Source: Flavobacteriales bacterium
GTDB lineage: Bacteria; Bacteroidota; Bacteroidia; Flavobacteriales; TMED113
DNA: 47,188 nt
Assembly: GCA_002722215.1 (NCBI GenBank)
Contig: PBKX01000008.1
Location: 1-47,188 of the forward strand
Direction: 5' to 3'
How positions within the stretch are numbered: the first letter of the stretch is position 1; each line of letters begins with the position of its first letter. Shown in pieces: positions 21,123-36,505 of this stretch. The position numbers were made by a program, and so were the translations under genes. The notes beneath the pieces were generated by a model. The model made no database searches and was not told the origin of the DNA. It worked only from the letters and a program-made list of their open reading frames with translations.

Positions 21123-22466
21123 TTATTGCTTGAAATTAGGAGGTAATCCACCTAAATTTTTCATCATATTATCAAATCCTCCGCTTTTCATCATTTTCAT
21201 CATTTTGCCCATTTGACTAAACTGTTTAATTAACTTATTAACATCCTCAATTTTAGAACCACTACCAGACGCTATTCGCTGACGTCTTGAATGATTAATA
21301 ATTTTTGGATCATTTCTTTCTTGTTCTGTCATTGAAAAAATCATAGATTCAATACCTTTAAATGCATCATCGTCAATATCCATATTTCTCACTGCTTTAC
21401 CTACTCCAGGTATCATGCCTAATAAATCTTTAATGTTTCCCATTTTCTTAATTTGTTTTATTTGCTTTAAAAAATCATTAAAAGTAAATTGATTTTTTAG
21501 CATTTTCTTCTCCATCTCCCTCGCTTCTTTTTCATCGAATTGCTGCTGAGCCCTTTCAACTAAAGAGACAACATCACCCATTCCTAAAATTCTATCTGCC
21601 ATTCTATTAGGATGAAAAATATCAATCGCATCCATTTTCTCACCAGTGCTAATAAATTTAATTGGCTTATGCACTTCACTTTTAATTGTAAGAGCAGCTC
21701 CACCTCTAGTATCTCCGTCTAATTTTGTCAACACAACACCATCATAATTAAGAACTTCATTAAATGTTTTCGCAGTATTAACTGCATCTTGACCAGTCAT
21801 AGAATCTACCACAAATAAAATTTCTGATGGAGACACTACATCCTTAATACATTTTATTTCTTCCATCATCTGATTATCTATAGCTAATCTACCAGCGGTA
21901 TCAATGATCACAATATTTTTACCCTCTTTTTTTGCGTACTCTATCCCTCTTTTAGCAATTTGAACAGGATCCTTTTCATTTAAATCTTTATAAACGGGGA
22001 CAGCAATAGAGGCCGCAACAACTTCCAATTGATCAATAGCTGCAGGCCTATACACATCACATGCAATAAGTAAAGGCTTAAGCTTTTTATGGGTTTGCAA
22101 ATAATTTGCCAACTTTGCTGAAAAAGTAGTTTTTCCTGAACCCTGTAATCCTGCAATTAAAACAACAGTGAACTTTGAGTCTAAATTTAGCTCTTGAGCC
22201 TTACTGCCCATTAACTGAGTTAATTCATCTTGAACAATTTTAATCATCAATTGACCAGGATTAATGGAAGTTAAAACATCTTGACCAATAGCTTTATCTT
22301 TGACTTGAGTTACAAAATTTTTAGCTGTATGATACGAAACATCTGCGTCTATTAATGCTCTTCTAACCTCTTTCAATGTTTGAGCAACATTGATTTCAGT
22401 AATTCTACCATGCCCCTTTAATAAACTAAAGGCTTTTTCTAATTTATCTGATAATTTTTCAAACAT
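21123..22466 (-). CDS. ffh: Signal recognition particle protein Ffh (SRP54)
   Basis: GTPase that binds the SRP RNA and signal sequences and docks on FtsY. The N domain (1-95) precedes the G domain, with GLQGSGKTT (106-114), DVYRPAAIDQL, DTAGRLAIDNQ, TKLDGDTRGG and the closing GEKMDAIDIFHPNRMADRILGMGDV. The M domain is methionine-rich with the RNA-binding RQRIASGSGSKIEDVN. At 447 aa it is of normal length. It lies 14 bases after argS and 4 bases before folD. The receptor gene ftsY is also in this window (34411-36090). Confidence 0.98.
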   Translation of the reverse strand: MFEKLSDKLEKAFSLLKGHGRITEINVAQTLKEVRRALIDADVSYHTAKNFVTQVKDKAIGQDVLTSINPGQLMIKIVQDELTQLMGSKAQELNLDSKFTVVLIAGLQGSGKTTFSAKLANYLQTHKKLKPLLIACDVYRPAAIDQLEVVAASIAVPVYKDLNEKDPVQIAKRGIEYAKKEGKNIVIIDTAGRLAIDNQMMEEIKCIKDVVSPSEILFVVDSMTGQDAVNTAKTFNEVLNYDGVVLTKLDGDTRGGAALTIKSEVHKPIKFISTGEKMDAIDIFHPNRMADRILGMGDVVSLVERAQQQFDEKEAREMEKKMLKNQFTFNDFLKQIKQIKKMGNIKDLLGMIPGVGKAVRNMDIDDDAFKGIESMIFSMTEQERNDPKIINHSRRQRIASGSGSKIEDVNKLIKQFSQMGKMMKMMKSGGFDNMMKNLGGLPPNFKQ

Positions 22467-29972: not shown

Positions 29973-31271
29973 TTAGTCGATTCTTTTACAATGAAAATCA
30001 TCGTATTGAAAAATTAATGTAGCGACATTTTTATCCCCGCCATTTTTAGATTTTTTAAAATCATAGGTTGTCCCCAATATAGTTCTAGGATCAGAATTCA
30101 CTAAATCTGATATACTAAACCCATCTTGCCAGAAAAAATCCATAAAATACAACCCTAGCTCATAACCTACCGAAGCATATTTTAAATGAGGGCTATAATT
30201 GTAATGATCATAAAAATTAATGATAAAATTACTCAGTTCCGCATTATTAAAAAATTGATTATGTGGAAAGGTAACATTCATATCCATCAAATCATATACA
30301 GAAATGTGATTAAAATTAGATAAAGTAGGCATCCCATATACAACCATATTTGTATCCCTACATGCATGCAACTTAGAAAGCAGATCGGCAACAAAAACAT
30401 TATCATCAGAGGGAATAATAATCACATTTTTCATACCCAGAGTATCTAATTCATGATGTATAGAATCAATAACATTTGATAGAACTTTGATTTCTTTAAA
30501 AGAAAACAATGAAGTATCAACACCATTTAATACAATTTGGCCATAATCAATGTCTGAGGGAATCAATGTATCTGTTTTAAGTTCCCATTCATTTAAGCCG
30601 GCAATCTTTTGATTCGTAACTTTAAGGATCGTATCTCTCCTTATCAATAACAAGTTATCATCAACATGATGATCAAAAATATATTGCGAAAAAAAGGATA
30701 AGTGATTTTTCACATGAGTAGCTAATTGGATTACATTTTCATTTCCATCAGTAATATGTGCTTTTTTTGAAAATGGTGATATAATAGGAATACCCGAATC
30801 AAATCTATCTTTAAAAAACACAAAATTATCGGTAAAAAGAGGACCAATAATAAGATCCATGTCTTCCAAATAACCCTCTCTTACAACATTTGCCAATATC
30901 TCCTTAGATTCTAGACCTTCCTTTATATCAAAAACTGAAATATCAATATCAATACTCTTAAATGCATTTAATGATAATAAAAATCCCAAATAAAAATCAA
31001 GTGAAATTTTAGTTTTTTTATATAAATCATAATCATCAATATTGACATCCTTCAATGAGTCAATACTATTAGATAGAATAAAGGTATTGTGATCTAAACA
31101 AAAGGGCAAAAGCAAGGAAATTTTATATTTGCTTTTATGATTGTTCTTAAAAGTAACATGTTTAGCCTTCTCAAATGTTGATTTAAATCTAAAATTATTA
31201 TCTACTTGAGATATACTTTTTGAAAAAAGAGAAATAGATAAAAAAAATAATATATATACCCTTATTCCCAT
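29973..31271 (-). CDS. Exported type I periplasmic-binding-fold protein (LpoA/LysM-protein relative lacking LysM)
   Basis: The 432-aa protein has a signal peptide (1-22). From about residue 50 the sequence follows the type I binding-protein fold: [45 protein letters not shown], and late [17 protein letters not shown]. In many Flavobacteriia the gene after guaA encodes LysM domains followed by this fold. Here only about 30 residues separate the signal peptide from the binding fold and no LysM motif is visible. It may bind peptidoglycan-linked or outer-membrane partners as LpoA does; this is inference. It starts inside the end of guaA (10-base overlap). Confidence 0.75.
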
Positions 31272-32791
31272 TCTATTGTCGCAGGTGGTTTAGAACTAAT
31301 ATCATATACAACTCGATTCACCCCTTTCACTTTATTAATAATCTCGTTAGAAACCTTAGCTAGAAAATCGTGAGGTAAATGAACCCAATCTGCAGTCATT
31401 CCATCTGTGGATGCTACAGCGCGTAATGCTACAACTTTCTCATATGTTCGTCCATCACCCATCACTCCGACACTATTATCTCCTAATAAAATAGCACCTG
31501 CTTGCCAAACATCATGATATAAGTTATGTTCTTTCAAATATTTTATAAAAATAAAATCAACATCTTGCAATATGGCAATTTTATCAGAATTGACCTCGCC
31601 CATAATTCTAATAGCTAAACCTGGTCCTGGGAAAGGATGCCTATTGATAATAGCTGGATCAATACCTAAAGCTAAACCCACCCTTCTGACCTCATCTTTA
31701 AATAATTTTTTTAATGGCTCGACAATTTGTAAATCCATTTTTTCAGGCAACCCACCAACATTATGATGGGATTTAATCGTCTCTGAGGGGCCTCCTGTAC
31801 CAGAAATAGACTCAATAACATCAGGATAAATCGTCCCTTGACCTAAGAATTTAATTCCACTATATTCTTGTGATACAGATTCAAATATATTAATAAAAGT
31901 TGAGCCTATAATTTTTCGTTTTTTTTCAGGGTCAACAATATTTGATAAATTTTTCAAAAATTCCAAGGATGCATCCACCCCCCTAATATTTAGCCCTATA
32001 TGTTCATAAGCCTTTAAAACATCTTGATATTCATTCTTTCGCAACAAACCATTATCAACAAATACACAAAATAAATTATTACCAATAGCTTTATGTAACA
32101 AGACAGCAGCTACAGTTGAATCAACACCTCCAGATAATGCCATTAACACTTTTTGAGAACCCACTTCGTTTTTTAATTTCTCTACAGTAGATGTAATAAA
32201 AGAATCTGAAGTCCAATTCTGATGAAAATCACATATATTAATTAGAAAATTAGATAAAATAAGCTTACCACATGTTGTATGATATACTTCTGGATGGAAC
32301 TGTAAAGCAAAAGTATTTTCGTTATTAATCGAAAAGGCAGCTATATTAACATCATCAGTACTAGCAATAATATAAGCATCTTGAGGTAATTCAAGTATTG
32401 TATCTGCATGCGACATCCAAACCTGTGATTTTTTACTTACAGAATTAAATAAATTATTTTCATGTACTAGTGATAAAGTTGAGCGACCATATTCTCTATT
32501 ATTAGATGTCTCAACATGCCCCCCTATTTTACTCGCTATTAATTGTGCACCATAACACAAAGCTAACAAAGGGACATGTTTTCTAATAAGAGATAAGTCA
32601 ATAGTAGGAGCGTCTATATTATTGACAGAAGCAGGACCACCAGATAATATAACACCCTTTACATGAGTTGGCAAAGACTTAAATTTGTCAAATGGGATAA
32701 TCTCTGAACATACATTCAATTCTCTAACTCGTCTTGCAATTAATTGGGTATACTGAGATCCAAAATCAATTATCAACAATACTTCTTTCAT
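31262..32791 (-). CDS. guaA: GMP synthase (glutamine-hydrolysing)
   Basis: Converts XMP to GMP with glutamine and ATP in the cytosol, 509 aa. The class I amidotransferase domain has [17 protein letters not shown], nucleophile C79 in LALCYGAQ and the H166/E168 pair in QFHPEVYHT. The ATP-pyrophosphatase domain has the P-loop ALSGGVDST (218-226). The C-terminal dimerisation domain has [15 protein letters not shown] and ends KPPATIEWE, the invariant terminus. The gene follows bshC by 23 bases. Confidence 0.98.
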
Positions 32792-32814: not shown

Positions 32815-34404
32815 TTAGTCTTCTTCGGTTAAGATAATATATTTATTATCAAATATCGAACTTTCCTTTATTAAAGCATCAAAAAATTGCTTACCATATT
32901 TAATATAATATGGAATAAAACTTTCAGAACGTTCTTGAATATAATGCCCAGGAAATACTGCTTGATTAATTAATTTAATTTGTGTGACAGTATCTTTATT
33001 TTTTATTTTATCATATTTCAAAACTTTCTTTTCAAGTCTATTAAATTCATTTTCTAATCTTTTTTTAAAAACATAAAAAGAATCTATTGGAAAACCTTTA
33101 ATAAATTTTATTTTTTCTTCGAAAGCAAATAAAGAAGCATTAAAATTAGACAACTCCTGTTTCATATTAATTAAAGATTTTGAAGTAAGTATTTCTTTTA
33201 TTTGATTGTCATGATCTAAAAATAAATCCTCATCTAATAAGCCTAACTTATTTTTTAGAGCACTTATACGTTGAGAAAGAATTAAAAAGTGTGACCTTAA
33301 TCCTATCAAAGGATAATCAACATGCCTAAAATTAAACATTTTTTTTAACTGAATCCAATAAGCAACTTCTGAGGGGCCTCCTAAATATAAAATATTAGGC
33401 ATAATTAATTCTTGGTAAAGTGGACGTAAAAAAACATTTGGGCTAAATCTTTCTGGGAACTCATTAATTTCATTTAACAATTCATTTAAATTCCATGTTT
33501 TAGCATGATGATCTGTAAAATATGTTTTTTGATCAAACTTAATTTTTGATCGAATAGAATTAAATAAATAAAAAATATTATCCCTAAGAGGATTAATCTC
33601 AGGTTTATATTTTTTCTGAAGGAGATTATTCGTTTTTGAAACACTTTTATAGACAAAAGAATCAGTCAACTCACATTTTAAATGTGGAACAAATATCTTT
33701 TTTAATTGAGAATGATTACCATCAATAATTACTAGGCCATAATCACCAAATAAAGCAGTCAATAAAGACCGAGTGGCATTCGCATAATTATGATTTTTAC
33801 TATATGCAAAATGATATATAGTGAATAACTCTTTCCCATAATCAGTAGCATATAAAACTTTTTTAATTTTTATAAGAGTTTTTAAGAGTGATTTAGAAGA
33901 TAAATTACCAATACAATCTTGAGTTTCTAGTTCCCAATGATAATTTACACCTTCTAGATTACAAGATTGAATCTCCGCAAAATCATGATCCTCACTTGCC
34001 ATCCAAAAACATGGCACAAAAGAAACATTTTTTAGAGTATGATTTAAATAATTAGCATATGAAATAACTGAGATAATTTTATATATTAAAAACAGAGGGC
34101 TTGCAAATATATTTAGCTGATGTCCTGTAGTAATAGTATAGACACTATTATCTGATAATTTAGATACATTATTGTTCACAACAGATAGGTCTGTATTTAA
34201 AAAGAGTGTGTCGTCATATTGTTGCTTTAAAACATCCGATAAAATAGTTCGATGGTCTTTTTTCCTTTCTAATTTAGAATTAAGAGCATTCATGTTGAGG
34301 AAAGAATTAATAAATGGCTGTAAAGATGAATCAGATTCAATAAAATCACAAATTAATTTTGAGAATAAACGAGTTTTACTAAAAGAGATACTTTTCTTTT
34401 TCAA
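32815..34404 (-). CDS. bshC: Bacillithiol biosynthesis cysteine-adding enzyme
   Basis: Adds cysteine to GlcN-malate in the last step of bacillithiol synthesis. The 529-aa protein has TITTGHQLNIFASPLFLIYKI, the FVPCFWMASEDHDFAEI motif characteristic of BshC, NILYLGGPSEVAYW and YPLIGLRS, with coiled-coil-like helices in the C-terminal third. The start is TTG 34404. It gives the expected N-terminus (ISFSKTRLFSKLICDF), and an in-frame stop only two codons upstream excludes a longer form that uses a normal start. It follows ftsY by six bases. The BshA and BshB genes are not in this window. Confidence 0.93.
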   Translation of the reverse strand: MKKKSISFSKTRLFSKLICDFIESDSSLQPFINSFLNMNALNSKLERKKDHRTILSDVLKQQYDDTLFLNTDLSVVNNNVSKLSDNSVYTITTGHQLNIFASPLFLIYKIISVISYANYLNHTLKNVSFVPCFWMASEDHDFAEIQSCNLEGVNYHWELETQDCIGNLSSKSLLKTLIKIKKVLYATDYGKELFTIYHFAYSKNHNYANATRSLLTALFGDYGLVIIDGNHSQLKKIFVPHLKCELTDSFVYKSVSKTNNLLQKKYKPEINPLRDNIFYLFNSIRSKIKFDQKTYFTDHHAKTWNLNELLNEINEFPERFSPNVFLRPLYQELIMPNILYLGGPSEVAYWIQLKKMFNFRHVDYPLIGLRSHFLILSQRISALKNKLGLLDEDLFLDHDNQIKEILTSKSLINMKQELSNFNASLFAFEEKIKFIKGFPIDSFYVFKKRLENEFNRLEKKVLKYDKIKNKDTVTQIKLINQAVFPGHYIQERSESFIPYYIKYGKQFFDALIKESSIFDNKYIILTEED

Positions 34405-34410
34405 AATATC

Positions 34411-36090
34411 TTATTTAAATAAAGAGTCGACAAAACGCATTTTATCAAATAATTGAAGATCGCCAATACCCTCACCAACCCCTATATATTTAATAGGTAT
34501 ACTTAACTGATCACAAATTGAAATCACAACTCCACCTTTAGCGCTACCATCTAATTTGGTTAATGCTAAATGAGTAACCTTTGTAGATTTTAAAAATTGC
34601 TTCGCTTGTTCAAGAGCATTTTGCCCTGTGGAAGCATCTAAGACTAAAACCACTTCATTAGGAGCTTCAGGTAATAACTTATGAATTGCCTTATTAATTT
34701 TTTCCAACTCCATCATCAGATTAACTTTGTTATGTAATCTCCCAGCCGTATCAATTAATATATAATCCATATTATTAGAAATACCAGACTGAACTGTATC
34801 ATAGGCAACAGATGCTGGATCAGCGCCCATAGCTTGCCTTATAATTGGGACATCTATTCGTGTGGACCAAGACTCAAGCTGATCAATTGCTGCTGCCCTA
34901 AAAGTATCGGCAGCGCCCATTAAAACTTTCTTTCCACTCATCTTTAGCGAATTGGCTAATTTAGCAATAGTGGTAGTTTTCCCCACACCATTTACCCCTA
35001 CAAATAATATCACATATGGATGAGATGCATCTAATTCACTACTAATAGCATCTCCACCAACACTAAGTAAATTGACTATTTGTTGTTTTAAAATTTTTTT
35101 CAACTCAATTTCATCTAGATAGCTGTTCTTTTCTACATAATCTTCAATTAAATCGATGATCTTCACTGTGGTATCTACACCAACATCTGCTACTATTAAC
35201 ATTTCCTCTAAATCATCTAAGAAACTATCATCTATTTTATTTTTTCCAGAAAAAAATAATTTCATTTTACTAAAAAAACCCTCTCGAGTTTTATCTAGAG
35301 TCTTATCTAGTTTCTCCTCTTTTTTATCAGAAAAAAGATTATTCTGAGAACTAGATGAAGAATCATTAAATCCTGGTTCTGAAGTTATCTCTGGTTCTGA
35401 AGTTATCTCTGGTTCTGAAGCTAACTCTGGTTCTGAAGCTAACTCTGGTTCTGAAGTTATCTCTGGTTCTAAAGCTACCTCTAGTTCTGAAGTTATCTCT
35501 GGTTCTGAAGTTATCTCTGGCGCTGAAGCCAACTCTGATTCTGAAGTTATCTCTGGCTCTGAAGCCAACTCTGATTCTGAAGTTATCTCTGGTTTTGAAG
35601 CTAACTCTGGTTTTGAAGCTAACTCTGGTTCTGAAGCTAACTCTGGTTCTGAAGTTATCTCTAGTTCTGAAGCTAACTCTGGTTCTGAAGCTAACTCTGG
35701 TTCTGAAGTTATCTCTAGTTCTGAAGTTATCTCTAGTTCTGAAGCTAACTCTGGTTCTGAAGCTAACTCTGGTTCTGAAGTTATCTCTGGTTCTGAAGTT
35801 ATCTCTGGCTCTGAAGCCAACTCTGATTCTGAAGTTATCTCTGGTTCTGAAGCTAACTCTGGTTCTGAAGTTATCTCTGGCTCTGAAGTTATCTCTGTCT
35901 CTGAAGCCAACTCTGGTTCTGAAGTTGATGCTAGTGATGATTGTCGCTCTAGTTCCAATACTGAATCAGATTCTAAAACTATTTTTTCTAGATCTTTTTT
36001 ATCTAATCCTGTATTAGTTTTGTCTGTTTTCTCCTTGGATTTCTTAGAGGGAACACTAAAAATCCCTTTAATCTTATCAAAAATACCCAT
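34411..36090 (-). CDS. ftsY: SRP receptor FtsY with long acidic hexapeptide-repeat N-terminal domain
   Basis: Membrane-associated GTPase that receives Ffh-ribosome complexes. The C-terminal NG domain (about 255-559) is standard: FVGVNGVGKTTTIAKLA, MGAADTFRAAAIDQL, DTAGRLHNKVNLMMEL, LTKLDGSAKGG and GVGEGIGDLQLF near the end. Residues 1-50 are a lysine-rich start (MGIFDKIKGIF), probably amphipathic. Residues 57-242 are about 31 tandem hexapeptides of the type SEPELA or SEPEIT, making the protein 559 aa against a remembered length of about 320 for Bacteroidota FtsY. The acidic extension recalls the acidic A domain of E. coli FtsY in charge but not in sequence. The gene follows DUF4295 as is normal in this phylum. 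Confidence 0.95.
   Translation of the reverse strand: MGIFDKIKGIFSVPSKKSKEKTDKTNTGLDKKDLEKIVLESDSVLELERQSSLASTSEPELASETEITSEPEITSEPELASEPEITSESELASEPEITSEPEITSEPELASEPELASELEITSELEITSEPELASEPELASELEITSEPELASEPELASKPELASKPEITSESELASEPEITSESELASAPEITSEPEITSELEVALEPEITSEPELASEPELASEPEITSEPEITSEPGFNDSSSSSQNNLFSDKKEEKLDKTLDKTREGFFSKMKLFFSGKNKIDDSFLDDLEEMLIVADVGVDTTVKIIDLIEDYVEKNSYLDEIELKKILKQQIVNLLSVGGDAISSELDASHPYVILFVGVNGVGKTTTIAKLANSLKMSGKKVLMGAADTFRAAAIDQLESWSTRIDVPIIRQAMGADPASVAYDTVQSGISNNMDYILIDTAGRLHNKVNLMMELEKINKAIHKLLPEAPNEVVLVLDASTGQNALEQAKQFLKSTKVTHLALTKLDGSAKGGVVISICDQLSIPIKYIGVGEGIGDLQLFDKMRFVDSLFK
35365..35922 (-). repeat. 18-bp tandem repeat array (about 31 units) inside ftsY
   Basis: Plus-strand units read GGTTCTGAAGCTAACTCT or GGTTCTGAAGTTATCTCT, encoding SEPELA and SEPEIT hexapeptides on the minus strand. 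Every unit is in frame. Variants (SETEIT, SESELA, SKPELA, SELEIT, SAPEIT, SELEVA, LEPEIT) are single-base changes. Doublets and longer blocks of identical units recur, consistent with slippage or unequal recombination. Confidence 0.95.
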
Positions 36091-36163: not shown

Positions 36164-36319
36164 TTATTTTTCCTGTAAAAAAGCGGCGACATGTTCTTTG
36201 AGAACAATTCTTTCTTTAAATGTATACGCACCCGTTTTGTCTGATTTAATCATCTTAATGGCTTTAGTATAACCTTTTCCACCCCCTTTTTGTAATGTAG
36301 CAACAACTTTCTTAGCCAT
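36164..36319 (-). CDS. DUF4295 small basic protein
   Basis: This 51-aa ORF was below the track cut-off. It reads MAKKVVATLQKGGGKGYTKAIKMIK, then SDKTGAYTFKERIV, and ends AAFLQEK. This is the Bacteroidota-specific DUF4295 family, normally encoded between rpmG and ftsY as here. It starts four bases after the rpmG stop. Its function is unknown; size, charge and its ribosomal-protein neighbours suggest ribosome association. Confidence 0.93.
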   Translation of the reverse strand: MAKKVVATLQKGGGKGYTKAIKMIKSDKTGAYTFKERIVLKEHVAAFLQEK

Positions 36320-36322
36320 AAT

Positions 36323-36505
36323 CTATTTTATCTCTTTATGAATTGTATATTTTTTTAATATAGGATTGAATTTTTTCAATTCTAAACGATCAGGTGTATT
36401 CTTCTTATTTTTAGTAGATATATATCTAGATGTTCCAGAAACACCACTAGACTTGTGCTCTGTACACTCTAATATTACCTGAACCCTATTACCTTTTTTT
36501 GCCAT
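36323..36505 (-). CDS. rpmG: Ribosomal protein bL33
   Basis: The 60-aa large-subunit protein begins [17 protein letters not shown] and contains [21 protein letters not shown] and [12 protein letters not shown], the conserved bL33 core. The zinc-ligand CxxC pairs of the C+ form are absent, so this is a zinc-independent type. rpmB normally precedes it directly; here a 1.6-kb peptidase gene and a 116-base gap separate them. Confidence 0.97.

Follow-up and report, generated by a model that had tools for sequence, protein, structure and literature searches.

The SRP receptor FtsY encoded in our window, by which we mean the whole 47,188-nucleotide stretch of Flavobacteriales contig PBKX01000008.1, bears a long acidic array of tandem hexapeptides between a basic N-terminus and its GTPase core. 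We consider it moderately probable that the array represents the A domain of a genuine SRP receptor and that repeat turnover keeps rebuilding it while selection maintains its acidity and disorder. The identity of the gene, already proposed in the initial annotation, is well supported. The minus-strand open reading frame at 34411-36090 (559 aa) scores 338 bits against TIGR00064, above the curated FtsY cut-off of 260.7, and the ffh model scores well under its own cut-off on the same frame. Pfam SRP54 and SRP54_N agree, with all matches inside residues 273-558. The NG GTPase core (34414-35307, minus strand) has the SRP GTPase motifs GVNGVGKTT, DTFRAAA, DTAGR and TKLDG all intact, the corresponding columns of alignment A1 (G365-T373, D395-R398, D447-R451 and T511-G515) being invariant. 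The locus is otherwise ordinary, with the gene order rpmG, DUF4295, ftsY, bshC, guaA: rpmG (bL33; 36323-36505, minus strand, TIGR01023) is followed by the DUF4295 gene (36164-36319, minus strand, PF14128), which lies immediately upstream of ftsY and serves as a locus marker in relatives, and bshC (32815-34404) and guaA (31262-32791) come after it. Both SRP partners of FtsY were found in the genome, Ffh within the window (21123-22466, minus strand; TIGR00959, 597 bits) and 4.5S RNA outside it, as an RF00169 match on G000:C15.

Tandem Repeats Finder (TRF) recovers a single array at 35373-35926 on the minus strand (period 18, 30.8 copies, indels 0, score 751), entirely inside the ftsY frame and corresponding to residues 57-240. 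The copy number of about 31 given earlier is thus borne out, as is the statement that all units stay in frame; the earlier boundaries (35365-35922) were a few bases off. Read by unit, the array comprises 30 complete hexapeptides of the form S-E-P/S/L/T-E-LA/IT, chiefly SEPELA and SEPEIT, and a partial SEPGFN. The LA and IT types are equally frequent (15:15) and irregularly mixed, and are written in 12 distinct DNA unit sequences. Glutamate is invariant at unit position 4 and present at position 2 in 27 of the 30 units; the most variable position is 3 (P 22, L 4, S 3, T 1). This is the sole good match in the genome, a search for a SEPELA array elsewhere in it having returned none. On the opposite strand, the open frame at 35595-36017 (plus) was rejected as a by-product of the repeat: it encodes hydrophobic LVLKLS repeats, and no gene evidence was found for it.

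The genome is in 39 contigs and 81% complete, and contigs of relatives break at this very position, so it could be argued that the array is chimeric or of wrong length. We regard such an artefact as extremely unlikely. The longest exact DNA repeat inside the array is 71 bp, which ordinary short reads can span, making a gross assembly error improbable; moreover, the 12 unit sequences are distinct, the frame is open throughout, and ten relatives possess analogous acidic regions.

The order of the units had been taken as a sign of active expansion and contraction. Unit order does not support this part of the earlier claim: no run of more than three unit types recurs in the window array, and a recurring run of three is reached in 921 of 2000 order shuffles, so the order gives no sign of recent block duplication. 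What stands of the idea of expansion and contraction applies between species only, where the arrays of relatives do differ.

The charge profile and the predicted structure outline the anatomy of the protein. Residues 1-56 (35923-36090, minus strand) consist of the MGIFDKIKGIF start and a roughly neutral linker; residues 1-22 are net positive and the flanks of the array are near neutral. The array itself carries a net charge of -56 over 183 aa (-0.31 per residue). In an AlphaFold2 model computed with 12 NG-core relatives, pLDDT is below 50 across residues 52-255 and the array lacks secondary structure, whereas NG is folded from a predicted helix at residues 252-280 onwards; as A-domain relatives were absent from the alignment, the low pLDDT fits disorder without proving it. 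That helix (35251-35337, minus strand) sits at the A/NG boundary, in the position of E. coli alphaN1, as indicated by the model and by KLDKTLDKTREGFF compared with relatives. A weak helix is also predicted at residues 3-10, within the basic start, with a pLDDT of about 38. The earlier description of an acidic spacer separating a basic N-terminal helix from NG agrees with both the charge and the predicted disorder.

The same succession of a helix, an acidic disordered A domain and NG is already known from E. coli, so the suggestion that the architecture was undescribed is not supported. E. coli FtsY has a basic N-terminal lipid-binding segment, an acidic disordered A domain of ~200 residues, alphaN1 and NG in the same order (PMC5533587; PMC6028451), and its A domain is nearly equally charged (net -46 over 195 residues, -0.24 per residue, vs -57 over 255, -0.22 per residue, for the whole A domain of the window protein). 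At its very N-terminus (alphaA1) the E. coli protein contacts lipids dynamically; the stable lipid mode, made by alphaN1, is inhibited by the acidic A domain, an inhibition that SRP lifts (PMC5533587). The unstructured A domain also engages SecYEG and frees NG for SRP (PMC6028451). Nevertheless, its role has been described as unclear (PMC5533587), and the domain has been called non-essential (PMC2780400). By analogy, the short basic N-terminal helix of the window protein would touch the membrane, connected to the NG GTPase by some 200 residues of disordered acidic chain. As in E. coli, such a chain would work through bulk charge and length, keeping the receptor close to the membrane and SecYEG, and its negative charge would hold NG away from acidic lipids until the arrival of SRP. 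A role at the membrane and translocon is inferred, as is selection on charge. The difference lies in construction: E. coli has no clean tandem array in this domain, in contrast to the family described below, whose A domains are built of short units that change within one genus.

To place the array in its family (f1), we used 12 species found by whole-genome search, from the window genome G000 to G011. All 12 share a basic M-x-x-F-x-x-[IL]-K start and an NG core, and 11 of the 12 have an acidic repetitive region between the two, clearly tandem in nine or ten, G006 and G011 being the less clear cases. The repeat units are mostly species-specific and differ even within genus g1, where SEPELA/SEPEIT in G000 is replaced by AETPLETVSDSSQEDILD (an 18-aa SDSSQEDILD type) in G001 and by an EP array in G002. 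Elsewhere in the family we found EEEPVV (G003), EVQQ/EVQE (G004), a short 25-aa SEPEL/PEPES region with two near-repeats (G006), SESNESLHDVSTTDLDV (G007), QEETLQVEEEVVD (G008), a further EP array (G009), EVVEQVEDPVIED (G010) and an irregular PEPESESK/SEPELE region (G011). The frame is interrupted within the array, perhaps through assembly error, by Ns and a frameshift in G010 and by a stop or frame change in G011. Array length ranges from about 25 to >160 aa, the values for G002, G003, G007 and G008 being partial because their contigs stop inside the array. The initial annotation was prepared to regard the array as an old domain if one identical, fixed version recurred in all relatives; the relatives' arrays are different. 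As a side observation, RF00169 had no match in three of the 12 family genomes, namely G008 and G010 (both g7 species) and G004, which may be due to incompleteness or divergence.

Acidity is retained throughout this replacement. The net charge of the repeats lies between -0.29 and -0.52 per residue in all 11 species with a repetitive region, compared with -0.03 to +0.14 in the flanks that follow the array. Among the other proteins of the window, a charge of -0.28 per residue is reached by 0.6% of 18-aa segments and 11% of 6-aa segments. Given their shared ancestry and common SEPE/EP theme, the species are not independent draws, and we claim no single probability for this constancy; acidity was perhaps inherited from an ancestral EP-rich linker, a point that counts against the interpretation we favour. 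The exception is G005, whose linker is non-repetitive and near-neutral and contains no array, and thus the array is dispensable in at least one relative.

In the NG tree, family f1 forms one clade (support 100/99). Most FtsY proteins in the remainder of the order measure 315-340 aa: these NG-only proteins, like those of most relatives in the phylum, have an orthologous NG core and share the MGxFxxxF..K start, but the basic start directly abuts LDKGLEKTK. Acidic arrays reappear in family f11 of the same order (9 of 14 sequences examined). Its FtsY has the layout of the window protein, with acidic (E/D)P repeats, but falls in a separate clade elsewhere in the NG tree, and its units are nearly always EP, DP or SEP. 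Mapped on the tree, presence of the repeat changes six times, and at least four of these changes are forced by well-supported branches; one gain followed by several losses and two or more independent gains both fit. The branch that bears the f11 sequences of G116 and G066 is very long, at 1.03 changes per site. In a phylum sample of 108 other genomes, each 90% complete or more, the three longest FtsY frames (G201, 439 aa; G258, 423 aa; G278, 380 aa) were rejected as upstream read-through, their proteins starting beside NG, and none contains a real extension; the remaining frames, judged by length, do not exceed 364 aa.

A serious rival to selection on charge is mutational bias with weak selection. 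According to this scenario, a high rate of in-frame slippage would lengthen tolerant disordered tails, acidity would derive from the seed sequence and from the acidic character of disordered tails in this lineage, and the repeats would have no specific function in FtsY; we deem it possible, with a probability well short of even. Variable disordered regions of this kind, with no known function, are reported from many housekeeping proteins (Karamycheva et al., PMC9425974), and the species without an array, G005, is also in keeping with it. Further evidence comes from variation within the arrays themselves. In the window array, two of 11 distinct changes are synonymous, against an expectation of 24%. 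With no synonymous excess, purifying selection is not visible on this array, which seems to be of more recent origin than the EP arrays or under weaker constraint; this too is what growth by mutation would predict. In the older EP arrays of relatives most changes are synonymous, as they are in the EEEPVV and EVQ arrays, and the EP arrays thereby speak against a purely mutational origin. Synonymous to nonsynonymous counts are 25:3 and 19:5 in G002 and 14:1 in G009 (EP), 7:2 and 13:4 in G003 (EEEPVV), 9:8 in G004 (EVQ), and 33:6, 16:0 and 20:1 in the further arrays of G155, G150 and G073, where a synonymous share of about 17-22% is expected; choosing the stretches by their amino-acid pattern biases the counts towards synonymous change, above all in G150, but only a little in G002, G009, G073 and G155, where the stretch covers essentially everything between one flank (or the contig end) and the other. 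Also at odds with mutation-driven growth are the constancy of position and basic cap in 12 of 12 species and the persistence of repeats throughout the divergence of the family.

The remainder of the genome bears on the same question. We surveyed 767 kb (54% of the genome) for tandem arrays, and all those longer than ~100 bp (~80 bp in the second half surveyed) have periods divisible by three and lie in coding frames. They include repeats of surface proteins besides tails of other proteins. Repeats of the surface-protein type (GCTDELACNYDEFATIDDASCEY) also occur in the window at 305-1120, in a long minus-strand frame, with a similar kind on several other contigs. A Na/H exchanger (G000:C1:18574-19998, minus strand) ends in an acidic 13-aa repeat, KQTDDESEAGLDE, with a period of 39 bp, and bL31 (G000:C28:3-389, minus strand) has a tail of PVEEPVAEASPAESA repeats that is cut off by the end of the contig. 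An EEPKA array at the start of contig 19 (G000:C19:1-167), upstream of carA, is probably the tail of bL17, judging from relatives, in which the C-terminal tails of bL17 are acidic short repeats (EEEAPA, SSTEEKP, SSDEVVAEAP, VEETKVEEPK or EEPVVEDAPAT). This tail unit differs in most species, and in G002, G007 and G008 the tail is truncated by a contig end. SecG tails were considered as a related case and set aside, being acidic but short and without arrays. The occurrence of similar arrays in bL17, bL31 and the exchanger favours mutation-driven growth to the extent that part of the cause is lineage-wide rather than specific to FtsY, and a general slippage habit accounts for part of the FtsY arrays. 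Speaking against that growth, FtsY arrays are always acidic, whereas an 18-aa repeat at the end of contig 31, KQEKIDLNKATVTKTEPS (G000:C31:16387-17099, minus strand; no Pfam match), is non-acidic. The next frame after this protein is isocitrate-dehydrogenase-like. FtsY stands apart in its unvarying acidity and in the fixed position of its arrays, between the putative membrane helix and NG. A bolder proposal, to which we assign little probability, is that the FtsY A domain and the tails of bL17 and bL31, all species-specific acidic arrays that are quickly replaced, coat the site of cotranslational targeting and might form a co-evolving, charge-based and sequence-free layer between ribosome, receptor and membrane.

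In an alternative scenario, copy number would differ among cells and set the receptor-membrane distance or the efficiency of targeting, in the manner of contingency repeats. The units are multiples of three, allowing length to shift without frameshift; array length varies widely between species, as given above, and four of the relatives' contigs break inside the array. Such breaks are, however, expected at any repeat, and with identical adjacent units in just 6 of 29 pairs and no block duplications, the window array is not a perfect, highly mutable repeat. We hold this scenario to be very unlikely.

Returning to an A domain rebuilt by repeat turnover, we put forward that in-frame units arise via slippage or unequal exchange, spread, decay and would in time be replaced. 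If only charge and disorder are read, units could be freely replaced, and nearly each species would come to have its own. The data suggest that charge and floppiness matter in this tail and that the exact sequence does not. A comparable case is the haloarchaeal FtsY (csCOG halo9.00602), which likewise joins a conserved core to a variable disordered N-terminal region (PMC9425974). The haloarchaeal variable-region families as a whole set show short repeats and enrichment in P, S, T, D and E (PMC9425974); FtsY of this group differs in being archaeal, and the likeness is drawn at the level of general composition rather than unit by unit or by charge. Our literature search, with subscription papers mostly outside its reach, returned nothing specific on tandem-repeat FtsY. 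Nor did we find in the papers searched any description of an FtsY A domain that consists of clean tandem units and swaps them between species while staying acidic.

Family f1 can be regarded as a natural replacement experiment. The features that stay constant, namely the basic cap, acidity and predicted disorder, are likely those needed for function, and those that change, namely sequence, periodicity and length, are likely not needed by the A domain. The arrays of the different species thus provide ready variants for A-domain tests in E. coli assays, and the family shows that an essential housekeeping protein tolerates very fast repeat turnover.
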